The notes under the pieces: generated by a model
Seen by the model: the letters and a program-made list of their open reading frames with translations, nothing else
Database searches by the model: none
Told to the model about the DNA's origin: nothing
Made by a program: the position numbers and the translations under genes
Shown here: in pieces, positions 38,556 to 42,425 of the stretch
Layout of the letters: the number at the start of each line of letters is the position of its first letter
How positions within the stretch are numbered: the first letter of the stretch is position 1
NCBI GenBank assembly: GCA_002840245.1
Contig: PHAA01000022.1
Span: 1-60,090 of the forward strand
Direction: 5' to 3'
DNA: 60,090 nucleotides
DNA from: Firmicutes bacterium HGW-Firmicutes-15
GTDB taxonomy: Bacteria > Bacillota > Syntrophomonadia > Syntrophomonadales > Syntrophomonadaceae

Positions 38556-38807
38556 CTATTTCATTGCATCAAAAAACTTGCGCAGCTCCTCCTTCTTATC
38601 ATCATTCAAATAATGCCATCTTATTCCCTGTATAGTTCCCTCTAATGTGCAAAGAGTACTGAAACAAGTATCATGTTCAATAATTTTAACTCTAATAAAG
38701 GCATCTTTGCTACCCGTATGCTTCAATTGTTCAGAATTGTCTATTCCAGCCTCAATCAAGCGCTTTTCCAGCACTGTACCGATATTGGGCATTTTGCTTA
38801 GCTTCAT
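38556..38807 (-). CDS. TfoX C-terminal-domain protein
   Basis: The 83 residues match the stand-alone TfoX C-terminal domain (helix-hairpin-helix-like): LSKMPNIGTVLEKRLIEAGI, DNSEQLKHTGSKDAFIRVK and LCTLEGTIQGIRWHYLNDDK. In Proteobacteria TfoX regulates competence; in Firmicutes these short forms are uncharacterised. TAGGAG sits upstream of the ATG. It lies upstream of sppA on the same strand but 44 bases away. Confidence 0.82.
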   Translation of the reverse strand: MKLSKMPNIGTVLEKRLIEAGIDNSEQLKHTGSKDAFIRVKIIEHDTCFSTLCTLEGTIQGIRWHYLNDDKKEELRKFFDAMK

Positions 38808-38933: not shown

Positions 38934-40160
38934 TTAGGAAGAATGCATGATGTTTTCACAGTTAGTACGCAGGCGGTTTATAAAATTGAACAATTGTGCT
39001 TGCTCTTCTCGGGAAAAACCCTTTAGAATACCCTGTTCTGTTTCTTCGACAATAGGCCACAGCTGTCCCAATAATTGCTCACCTAAGCTGGTCAACTGAA
39101 TTGTTTCATGGTTATTTGCAGAATAGCAAATATATCCCTGCTTTAAGAGAGGGGTAATCAATTCCTGAAATTCGTTACCAAAATGAGCAGTGTCCTTCCA
39201 GGCCTGTTCTACGGTCATAAGCTCGTCACATTTTAGAACCATCATTAATATAATTTGGGTACTATTGAAAGAGGTTAACCGGCTAAGTTCCTTATCAAGA
39301 GCCAATTGAATGCATTTACCTGTAACATTAATTTCTCGGCCCAGCGTTTTGCGAATATGATTAACCAACATTGAGATTACCACCTTTAGTTTTAACTCAT
39401 ATATACTAATTCCTGCGGCTACGCCTGCATTCAAGGATTCCACCCCTCGGTTCATGGGAATCCTAATCGTGATATCAGCCTCAGACATAAGCTCATTAGA
39501 TATTCCTTCAGTTTCGTTGCCGATAACCAGCGCAACTGGCTTGCTCTGAAGTTTGACCAGCGACTGCAGCTCGGGTGCATGAGGGCTGGTAGCCACGATT
39601 TGATATCCGCGGTGCTTCAGATTTTTAGCCACCTCAAGGCCGGATGAAAACTTTTTGTGATTTACTCTAAATACGGTTCCGCGTGAGGCATCGATAGCCT
39701 TTTTATAGAACAGATCTAAATCATAACTGGTGGATAAGACCTCGTTTATACCGAAAGCAGAACAGGTTCGGATAATGGTGCCGATATTTCCATGATCTTT
39801 GAGTCCATCCAATACGAGTACGAAATCGCCAACTTCGTTTGATTGGATAGGTGAATTGATGACACCTACTCCCACAAAAGGTATAAGATAGTTAGTGTCT
39901 GAAATTTTCTTCAATATTCCCTCTGATGCTGCGATACACTTAACATCCTTTTCATGTAAGTGATCCAGGAAAGATTGATCCGGGCACTTGATATTATAGA
40001 AAACTCTATCTACTAGTATATGATTGTCAAAAGCCCAGCCAATTACCTGCTGACCTTCCAGTAAACACCTTCCATGTTTTCGTCTGCCAACAGAGGTCGA
40101 TAGTTCCCGTGCCTGTACCACACGCGCATCCTTTATTGATGTTACCTGTTCGAGTTCCAC
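38934..40160 (-). CDS. SpoU/TrmH-family RNA methyltransferase fused to MarR-like domain
   Basis: Residues 1 to about 260 are a SPOUT 2'-O-ribose methyltransferase: an N-terminal substrate-binding domain (HGRCLLEGQQVIGWAFD), motif 1 DHGNIGTIIRTCSAFGINEV, motif 2 PVALVIGNETEGISNELM and motif 3 RIPMNRGVESLNAGVAAGIS. Residues 262-408 are a separate helical domain resembling MarR: FNSTQIILMMVLKCDELMTV, LITPLLKQGYICYSANNHET with LTSLGEQLLGQLWPIVEETE, and GFSREEQAQLFNFINRLRTN, which matches the MarR dimerisation helices. The start is GTG behind GGAGG. It lies directly downstream of an efflux pump and a MarR gene on the same strand, so ribosome protection against an antibiotic is a reasonable inference. 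Confidence 0.82.
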   Translation of the reverse strand: MELEQVTSIKDARVVQARELSTSVGRRKHGRCLLEGQQVIGWAFDNHILVDRVFYNIKCPDQSFLDHLHEKDVKCIAASEGILKKISDTNYLIPFVGVGVINSPIQSNEVGDFVLVLDGLKDHGNIGTIIRTCSAFGINEVLSTSYDLDLFYKKAIDASRGTVFRVNHKKFSSGLEVAKNLKHRGYQIVATSPHAPELQSLVKLQSKPVALVIGNETEGISNELMSEADITIRIPMNRGVESLNAGVAAGISIYELKLKVVISMLVNHIRKTLGREINVTGKCIQLALDKELSRLTSFNSTQIILMMVLKCDELMTVEQAWKDTAHFGNEFQELITPLLKQGYICYSANNHETIQLTSLGEQLLGQLWPIVEETEQGILKGFSREEQAQLFNFINRLRTNCENIMHSS

Positions 40161-40314
40161 AAACCTACTACCTCCAATGTATCCTTCAAGCTAATACAAA
40201 ATTTCTATATTACTAGGTGCCAAACTTGCCCGCATTGTCACCTTTTACCAATAGTATAATTCTATTCTATATTATATACACAAGCTTTGGTGGAAAAAAC
40301 GAAGTCTATTCAAA

Positions 40315-41898
40315 CTAATCTGAGGTGGCTGGAATTGTGGGTGAGGAACTGCTAATCTTTTTAGAGCCCAGAGTTTCGGCCGGCTTCTTTTTCAAAAATA
40401 CTCCGAGGATTAAAGCCAGTGCACATAATACTGTTGCGACAATAAAACAATCCGAAATGGCATTGATCATTGACTGCTTGGCAATATATTGAGTGATAAC
40501 CCCAATGCCCAGGACTTGCCCAGTCTGAGCTCCCAGTCCGTTATTGACGGCGATCTGCGTAAAGTAGGAATTAATCGCGGATAGGTCGGGACTGTTCAAG
40601 TTTATCGATTGGGCCATTATGCCATAGTGGAATGCCTGCCGGTTTTGCATAAAAGCCGTAAACATAGCTATTCCAAAGGATACGGCTACCTGGCGCGAAA
40701 CGTTGCCCAGAGATGACGCCAAACCGACAGATGCTACAGGTACCGCATTCATGCCGGTGGTTGTTACCGGCATCATAGCCAGGCCTATTCCTACGGCCCT
40801 AAATGCCAACCAGGCAGAAATCACCCAAAACGGAGTTAGCCCGTTGATGTCGTGCATCATATAAGTGGTCCAGGTAGCCAGAGCAATACCTCCAATAATT
40901 AGACTCCTACCGCCACTTTTATCAAATATTCTGCCGCTGATAGGCATCATTAGTCCCATAACCAGTGCTCCCGGAAAAAGGATTAACCCAGTATGCATGG
41001 CAGTCTGGCCCAGTACATTCTGCAATAGAATAGGAAGGAAAAAAGTAGCCCCAAAAATGCCAATGAATAGTATGGAACCTACCAGGGTAGAGAGTGCGAA
41101 GGTAAAGTTCTTAAACAACCTGAAGTCCAATACCGGTGATGGATGACGCAATTCATGCCAAACTAAGAGGATCATAGCAATGATCCCTACCAGCAAGAGA
41201 ATGACAATTTCCGGTGATCCCCAACCCAATTTATTACCCTCGCTCATTGCGTATAGCAGGCAAAATAAACCGATGGCAGACAGCAGTATGCCTATTCTAT
41301 CAAAGTTAGCGATCGATTTTAAAGGAGTCTCTTTCAACAATACCATAGCCAACCCTATAGCTAGGAGGGCTACCGGTATATTAGCGTAGAAAACCACGCG
41401 CCAGTTAGTTACTTCGATAATGTAGCCGCCTAGAGTTGGTCCGATGGTTGGCGCAGCCATTGCGGCGATTCCCCAGACTCCAAGAACCAGTCCAATTTTG
41501 GATCGGGGTGCGGTCATATATATTAAGGCCATACCTATTGGCTGCATAAGTCCCCCACCTAGAGCCTGTAAAATGCGTCCGGCAATGAGAGGTCCAAGAT
41601 TCCAGGATATTCCACAGAACAAGGAACCCAGAACGAATAAACCCAGAGCCATGATATATACTTTTCTATATCCGAAGACATCGCCCAGGTATCCGGCGGT
41701 TGCCATAACGATTCCGGTAGTTAGCATGTAGCTGGTAATTACCCATTGGATAGCATCAACGGAGACGCCGAAGACTGACATCATTTTGGGCAGGGCGACA
41801 TTGATGATGCTGCCGTTGAGACCTGCCATAAATGTTCCGGTGATAACCACTAATATGGCAGACCACTCGATACGTTCCTCTAAATCCAGTGACTTCAT
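40315..41898 (-). CDS. DHA2 family (EmrB/QacA) multidrug efflux transporter
   Basis: This 527-residue major facilitator has about 14 membrane helices. Signatures are MAGLNGSIINVALPKMMSVF in helix 1, WVITSYMLTTGIVMATAGYL, GDVFGYRKVYIMAL (motif A), ILQALGGGLMQPIGMALIYM and GVWGIAAMAAPTIGPTLGGY (motif C of drug antiporters). Proton-driven export of drugs or lipophilic compounds is expected. GGAGGATA precedes the ATG. The MarR gene is 80 bases upstream on the same strand and the methyltransferase-MarR fusion is 154 bases downstream; together they look like one resistance-type unit. Confidence 0.93.
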   Translation of the reverse strand: MKSLDLEERIEWSAILVVITGTFMAGLNGSIINVALPKMMSVFGVSVDAIQWVITSYMLTTGIVMATAGYLGDVFGYRKVYIMALGLFVLGSLFCGISWNLGPLIAGRILQALGGGLMQPIGMALIYMTAPRSKIGLVLGVWGIAAMAAPTIGPTLGGYIIEVTNWRVVFYANIPVALLAIGLAMVLLKETPLKSIANFDRIGILLSAIGLFCLLYAMSEGNKLGWGSPEIVILLLVGIIAMILLVWHELRHPSPVLDFRLFKNFTFALSTLVGSILFIGIFGATFFLPILLQNVLGQTAMHTGLILFPGALVMGLMMPISGRIFDKSGGRSLIIGGIALATWTTYMMHDINGLTPFWVISAWLAFRAVGIGLAMMPVTTTGMNAVPVASVGLASSLGNVSRQVAVSFGIAMFTAFMQNRQAFHYGIMAQSINLNSPDLSAINSYFTQIAVNNGLGAQTGQVLGIGVITQYIAKQSMINAISDCFIVATVLCALALILGVFLKKKPAETLGSKKISSSSPTIPATSD

Positions 41899-41978
41899 CA
41901 GTATCCTCCAAAATATTAATTTGCTTAAGATGGTAACTGCTGAGAAGTGATTGGCAAGCGCATACTTCTCTAACCTGC

Positions 41979-42425
41979 TTATTTAAGATGAATACTGGAC
42001 TTAATAACTATATCCAATTCATCTAAGGCGGAAATGATCCGTATGGCTTTTTCCGGTTCTATATCATCGGCAATATCAGCTAGGAGACCGGCTCGGATAC
42101 TCTGAACTTCTTTTCTTTCTAAAAACTCTGAAGAAATAGATAGCCTGACTGTCCGCCGGTTTTCATGGGGGATCTCTCTAACGACAATGCCCTGGTTTAC
42201 TAGCTGGTCAACTATTCGTGAAACTGAACTTTTTGGCAAATCAAGTCGCTTGCTCAGGTCGGTCAACGATGAGTTCTCATGGCGATAAAGGTCAAATAGT
42301 ACGATGACCTGCGAAAATGTAATCCCAATGGCCTGAGTATGATGCTGAAAATTTAGTTTGATATTTCCTTGAATTGATCTTAAAAGGGTCATAATCTGGC
42401 GGGCATAATCCAGTGAATTCTGCAT
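41979..42425 (-). CDS. MarR family transcriptional regulator
   Basis: The 148-residue winged-helix protein has the MarR layout: dimer helix AIGITFSQVIVLFDLYRHEN, DNA-binding helices SLTDLSKRLDLPKSSVSRIV and DQLVNQGIVVREIPHENRRT with the wing (RRTVRLSIS), and a C-terminal helix. AAGGAG lies upstream of the ATG. As the first gene before an EmrB-type pump it very likely represses that operon. An inverted repeat ATCATT-5-AATGAT (42462-42478) upstream could be its operator. The 42426-42759 gap holds this and the kinase leader. Confidence 0.9.
   Translation of the reverse strand: MQNSLDYARQIMTLLRSIQGNIKLNFQHHTQAIGITFSQVIVLFDLYRHENSSLTDLSKRLDLPKSSVSRIVDQLVNQGIVVREIPHENRRTVRLSISSEFLERKEVQSIRAGLLADIADDIEPEKAIRIISALDELDIVIKSSIHLK

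Follow-up and report, generated by a model that had tools for sequence, protein, structure and literature searches.

Why would an enzyme that modifies RNA carry the fold of a transcriptional regulator? This question is raised by a 408-amino acid protein encoded on contig PHAA01000022.1 of Firmicutes bacterium HGW-Firmicutes-15 (assembly GCA_002840245.1), of which the 60,090 nucleotides analysed here are referred to as the window. The protein joins a SPOUT 2′-O-methyltransferase to a C-terminal MarR-like domain. With slightly less than even confidence, we favour the reading that it is an accessory, horizontally spread rRNA 2′-O-methyltransferase that protects the ribosome from thermorubin-like, aryl-primed aromatic polyketides, and that its MarR-fold dimer has given up DNA reading and most likely acts allosterically. 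On this reading, the fusion family offers a lead on how bacteria may resist thermorubin, resistance to which 'has not been well studied' (PMC12417992).

Architecture and distribution of the fusion

The gene and its parts lie on the minus strand of the window as follows.

38934..40160, minus strand: SPOUT 2′-O-methyltransferase/MarR-fold fusion, 408 amino acids (open reading frame (ORF) with GTG start, stop included; homologues align end to end)
39891..40124, minus strand: MRM3-like substrate-binding domain, residues 13-90 (PF22435, 26.7 bits, just below the cut-off of 27; best relative E 2e-8)
39399..39824, minus strand: SpoU_methylase catalytic domain, residues 113-254 (PF00588, E 3e-37, 128 bits against a cut-off of 29.7)
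38937..39428, minus strand: predicted MarR-fold domain, residues 245-408 (AlphaFold, Foldseek, VIA-align, hhalign and PDB profile search)
39093..39131, minus strand: degenerate short wing without Asp-Arg-Arg, residues 344-356 (alignment with eight MarR proteins)

Judged by its domain, catalytic motifs and modelled fold, the enzyme part is a SPOUT/SpoU (TrmH-type) RNA 2′-O-methyltransferase. The conserved catalytic Asn/Arg, NE..G and S-L-N motifs of SPOUT (SpoU/TrmH) enzymes were present, and N125, R131, N215, E216, G219, E241, S242 and N244 of the SpoU catalytic domain were invariant across all 12 members of the family described below. The Foldseek neighbours of this part were RlmR, YsgA, MRM3, AviRb and NHR, and the fold also resembled 1ipa. 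The window protein did not reach the equivalog model of TsnR/NshR (68 bits against a cut-off of 425) or that of RlmB (114 bits against 160). The AlphaFold model revealed a helix (residues 245-292) that combines the last SPOUT helix with MarR helix 1 and is followed by elements in the order a-b-a-a-b-b-a-a. The genome has a single copy of the fusion; as two ordinary SPOUT paralogues are also kept in it, the fusion is an extra, accessory gene and not a replacement.

No fusion was found elsewhere among 60 relatives or in a 63-genome set of the class, where it was absent from the other 62 genomes. A search of the phylum revealed a second copy in genome G176, of the same ORF length and 42% identical in its C-terminal part, which brings the frequency in the phylum to 2 of 398 genomes, the window's own included. 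A third copy, matching residues 3-408, was found by tblastn on plasmids of Priestia megaterium. A family profile built from the alignment of these three members was searched against the genome collection and added nine full-length copies, from KSB1, Ornatilinea (Chloroflexota), Rickettsiaceae, Holosporaceae, Orenia (two copies), Anaeromonas, Halanaerobium and Paraliobacillus. The family thus comprised 12 full-length members, the other 11 being 42-55% identical to the window protein in end-to-end alignment. Since these 11 encode the same two domains in one intact ORF, a frameshift or assembly artefact that joined two separate genes, raised by the sequence-only reading as a possible objection, was rejected.

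A tree built from 44 SPOUT sequences placed the fusions and a short, MarR-less relative from a plasmid of Staphylococcus saccharolyticus in one clade (support 100/100), separate from 31 other SPOUT sequences. The S. saccharolyticus relative was nested within the fusion clade, on a branch (99/98) that excludes the window, KSB1 and Ornatilinea copies; from this position, the MarR domain has probably been lost there, although the long branch of this copy calls for caution. Phages held merely distant plain SPOUT proteins and viral contigs one distant match. Because the fusion is scattered unevenly over phyla and missing from the other genomes of the class, it appears to have spread horizontally. 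The fusion is real, conserved and, judged by this distribution, horizontally mobile.

The copies from Rickettsiaceae and Holosporaceae metagenome-assembled genomes (L051, L055) formed a branch of their own (100/100); these are intracellular lineages in which a resistance enzyme is unexpected. Near the Anaeromonas fusion (L054; 12653-13435) were genes for an AraC/Cass2 effector-binding regulator and for a phosphotransferase of the APH type, a setting that recalls regions rich in resistance genes.

The protein could instead modify rRNA or tRNA as a housekeeping or niche-specific enzyme (RlmB/YsgA/RlmR-like) to which a regulatory domain has accreted, any linkage to biosynthetic clusters being incidental. 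The SPOUT part does resemble RlmR and YsgA, and many copies, including those in the Rickettsiales and Holosporales genomes, lie amid unrelated genes. The distribution is too patchy for such a role, however, and scores far below the cut-offs were obtained with the RlmB and TsnR models. With the class lacking the fusion and ordinary paralogues present besides it, a housekeeping orthologue was rejected as the principal explanation, and we consider this alternative quite unlikely.

The C-terminal domain and its DNA-reading head

The resemblance of the extra C-terminal residues to MarR, noticed from the sequence alone, was borne out by more sensitive comparisons. Direct profile searches were less telling: residues 262-408 reached none of the Pfam MarR models, NCBIfam returned only weak SlyA and HPAH-reductase matches, and a weak NDC10_II match below its cut-off was discarded. 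An hhalign comparison of 10 family relatives with eight true MarR proteins gave a probability of 98.8% (E 8e-17, 129 columns), and a search of PDB sequences with the family profile gave 43 matches, almost throughout to MarR, SlyA and MepR proteins (best 6e-8). Modelled by AlphaFold on its own (pLDDT 83), the domain had the MarR order of helices and strands, as it did in the whole-protein model: the a1-a2-b1-a3-a4-b2-b3-a5-a6 winged helix with dimer helices 1, 5 and 6. With the domain model, each of the top 50 Foldseek matches belonged to the MarR family (best, Escherichia coli MarR, E 6e-7). VIA-align superposed the model on NadR with 4-hydroxyphenylacetate (Z 15.0, root-mean-square deviation (rmsd) 2.0, 132 residues) and on Clostridioides difficile MarR with salicylate (Z 14.6, rmsd 4.1, 135 residues). 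Four independent tests of sequence and modelled structure therefore agree that the C-terminal part is a MarR fold.

The wing, the integrity of which had been left as a question, proved not to be intact. Alignment with eight MarR repressors showed that the DNA-reading head of the family is 53-57 residues long, compared with 59-60 in the repressors, and that the 3-7 missing residues are at the wing. The arginines of the Asp-Arg-Arg (DRR) motif and the S/T-x-x-R recognition pattern were gone. The net charge of the head was 0 to -6 in the family and -2 to +7 in the repressors, and in 11 of the 12 members the whole MarR-fold domain was acidic, with net charges of -1 to -9. Neither the intact Asp-Arg-Arg wing nor the basic recognition helix of a DNA-binding MarR regulator was thus present. 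As far as these alignments tell, the domain retains the scaffold for dimer formation and ligands, but what it would need to read DNA is gone.

The family profile also matched the C-terminal domain of the reductase C1 of p-hydroxyphenylacetate 3-hydroxylase (HPAH; 5zc2) colinearly, 96 profile positions pairing with 96 residues and no insertion at the wing, and the HPAH reductase model NF045919 matched 9 of 10 C-terminal domains (9-11 members). In the reductase, the MarR-like domain is autoinhibitory, and the inhibition is relieved by the phenolic substrate. Because the head is degenerate and the profile resembles this domain, allosteric control is favoured over DNA regulation; by analogy with the HPAH reductase, the MarR domain is most likely an allosteric, ligand-responsive module. 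A literature search returned no description of a MarR-SpoU fusion, which is not proof of absence.

The genes beside the fusion in the window bear on the opposite proposal, that the protein is bifunctional and still acts as a DNA-binding regulator of neighbouring efflux genes.

40315..41898, minus strand: DHA2/EmrB/QacA-type drug exporter (TIGR00711, 405 bits against a cut-off of 230)
41979..42425, minus strand: free-standing MarR regulator (PF12802, 49 bits; PF01047, 48 bits)

The sequence-only reading had correctly placed a MarR regulator, an EmrB/QacA pump and the SPOUT enzyme on one strand (TIGR00711, PF12802/PF01047 and PF00588), with 80 bp between regulator and pump and 154 bp between pump and fusion gene. 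The adjacency of the efflux genes on the same strand and the presence of a MarR fold would suit such a regulator. The shortened wing, the lost DRR and S/T-x-x-R motifs and the acidic head count against it, as does the separate, intact MarR of the window, which is probably the regulator of the adjacent EmrB-type pump. Moreover, no MarR/EmrB pair was found in the flanks read beside other fused copies (contigs L049, L051 and L056 being short). Continued DNA regulation is accordingly a very improbable explanation. Given the lack of the pair beside those copies and the 154-bp gap, the suggestion that the fusion and a matching exporter form one unit was not upheld; the pairing is at best a local arrangement. 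A gene for a small TfoX C-terminal-domain protein (38556-38807, minus strand) lies a short way downstream of the fusion, in the same orientation.

The MarR-fold domain of a resistance methyltransferase could also be merely a dimerisation or substrate-recognition module that senses no ligand. The continuation of the last SPOUT helix into MarR helix 1, by which the domain extends the dimer, agrees with this, as does the loss of the domain in the S. saccharolyticus relative, which is borne by a cluster and nested within the family. The acidity of the domain would be unfavourable to RNA contact, however; SPOUT enzymes dimerise without a MarR domain, and the closest enzyme-fused MarR-like domain, that of the HPAH reductase, is phenol-responsive. 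We regard this alternative as rather unlikely, and return to the reading that the enzyme protects the ribosome under probable allosteric control.

Aryl-primed polyketide clusters and yjdF

Independent support for a resistance role comes from three homologues that flank aryl-primed type II polyketide synthase (PKS) clusters. On the Priestia plasmid (L048), the fusion was located between yjdF and a cluster of ketosynthase (KS), chain length factor (CLF), acyl carrier protein (ACP), coenzyme A (CoA) ligase, methyltransferase and cupin genes. The MarR-less S. saccharolyticus relative adjoined a homologous cluster containing a salicylate synthase, and one of the two fused copies of Orenia was on the same contig as a third cluster, the KS of which was 55% identical to that of Priestia (E 1e-150).

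L059 4213-16054: S. saccharolyticus cluster on a 20-kb plasmid of this skin bacterium; salicylate-synthase type II PKS and MarR-less methyltransferase
L075 8673-14310 plus L053 300-9197: Orenia metallireducens cluster, contig NZ_PVNB01000027.1
L048 9224-9760; L053 7406-7945; L080 3886-4431; L081 14651-15085; L082 20182-20604: YjdF genes

By blastp, these three clusters were homologous gene by gene (KS/CLF/ACP/ligase/cyclase). The Orenia cluster had genes for a DeoC/LacD-type aldolase and a type II dehydroquinate synthase (DHQS-II) in place of the salicylate synthase. Such a pair makes 3-amino-4-hydroxybenzoate in grixazone biosynthesis, which suggests that the Orenia starter unit is of aminohydroxybenzoate type. 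A ferritin-like gene was a poor marker of the clusters, as Orenia has a cluster without one, and the KS was used instead. At E 1e-110, close relatives of this KS gene turned up in 1 of 399 Bacilli genomes; with these KS genes and the fusion both rare, a triple co-occurrence by chance is implausible. That the same rare cluster type is adjoined in three genera also speaks against a housekeeping enzyme with incidental linkage.

Three more homologous clusters were found, in the Bacilli genome G550, in Apilactobacillus kunkeei (25 of 33 kb read) and in Lactobacillus gasseri. That of G550 encoded a chorismate-binding salicylate-synthase homologue and an exporter, together with a riboswitch and yjdF. 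The exporter, of DHA2 type (L080 2214-3839), lies beside the riboswitch and yjdF and is 26% identical to the pump of the window. The L. reuteri pks cluster differs in gene content from that of L. gasseri and was therefore rejected as a model of it.

In both Priestia and Orenia, Rfam placed an azaaromatic (yjdF) riboswitch immediately 5′ of yjdF; in Orenia, the riboswitch, yjdF and the fusion follow one another on one strand, with 55 bp between yjdF and the fusion. YjdF (PF11208, DUF2992) was encoded in five of the six homologous clusters, and the riboswitch was detected in three of the six, directly upstream. In the L. gasseri plasmid cluster, a free-standing MarR gene (L082 20608-21057) directly follows yjdF after a 3-bp gap and may be a regulator replacing the riboswitch. 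The natural ligand of the yjdF riboswitch and the function of YjdF have been described as unknown, a toxic planar compound being suspected (PMC4793209), and no literature linking yjdF to aryl-primed polyketides was found. These neighbourhoods suggest that thermorubin-like polyketides are the natural ligands of the riboswitch and that YjdF protects against them; they point to a natural ligand class and to what YjdF may do, and so to answers to two questions that date back to 2016 or earlier (PMC4793209).

Thermorubin chemistry comprises a salicylate synthase and a salicylate-primed type II PKS (PMC11744666). The drug binds at bridge B2a and forms hydrogen bonds to the riboses of A1913 and G1491 (PMC9938272), so that a 2′-O-methyl group there could block it, which is chemically sensible. 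In the mechanism we propose, the SPOUT part would methylate a single ribose at the drug site or close to it, by analogy one at the H69/h44 bridge B2a contacted by thermorubin, the exact nucleotide being likewise predicted. The MarR-fold dimer would be an allosteric module that responds to a phenolic or polycyclic drug, or would shape the dimer for RNA binding. The domain architecture with its conservation, the intact catalytic residues, the degenerate DNA-reading head and the linkage of family members to such clusters were observed directly; the nucleotide that is methylated, the resistance, and the binding of a ligand with its gating effect are inferred. Of the coupling of sensing to protection, or allosteric control, envisaged from the sequence alone, the resistance role has gained from the PKS linkage, allosteric control is favoured, and sensing is plausible and has a precedent.

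Several observations weigh against this reading. In half of the six clusters (G550, A. kunkeei and L. gasseri), no methyltransferase was found in the stretch read, and for 10 of the 12 fused loci no adjoining cluster was seen. In S. saccharolyticus, the copy borne by a cluster is without the MarR domain, which is therefore dispensable for the role of the enzyme there. The clusters from S. saccharolyticus, Priestia and Orenia are thermorubin-like in gene content only. In the window's own genome, neither yjdF nor an aryl-primed PKS cluster was found (the best KS was FabF-like, with 34% identity and E 3e-72, compared with E 1e-150 for the Orenia KS), and no known RNA element or riboswitch was found near the fusion gene; the fusion would there be an acquired immunity gene.

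A bolder version holds that the enzyme is drug-gated, the MarR-fold polyketide sensor activating the fused methyltransferase only when the antibiotic is present, with thermorubin-like polyketides as natural yjdF riboswitch ligand and YjdF as a companion protective protein. We consider this combination doubtful. Resistance by rRNA methyltransferases is usually always on or controlled at the level of expression; a sensor domain within the resistance enzyme, if true, would be a new level of control.

Comparison with known systems

The fusion domain shares its whole fold, from helix 1 to helix 6, with the salicylate- and phenol-responsive MarR/SlyA regulators but differs from them in its degenerate DNA-reading head. 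The HPAH reductase C1 likewise carries a C-terminal MarR-like domain on an enzyme, although its catalytic part is a flavin reductase unrelated to SPOUT.

The closest solved folds of the enzyme part are the 23S rRNA 2′-O-methyltransferases of the YsgA/RlmR/MRM3 group, which have the MRM3-like substrate-binding domain in common with the window protein but are only ~25% identical to it and have no C-terminal MarR domain. The resistance methyltransferases TsnR/NshR and AviRb target A1067 and U2479 of 23S rRNA, respectively, and such genes are found beside antibiotic biosynthesis genes. With the window protein they share the catalytic motifs and the SpoU/TrmH fold, and AviRb and NHR are among its best structural matches, but they have no MarR domain. 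TsnR and AviRb are linked to thiopeptide and avilamycin, whereas the clusters linked to the window family are of aromatic polyketide type. Finally, thermorubin-type clusters (Laceyella sacchari) contain the salicylate synthase, CoA ligase, KS/CLF/ACP and cyclases that also occur in clusters with family members, the Orenia cluster differing in its aldolase and DHQS-II pair where the thermorubin type has a salicylate synthase.

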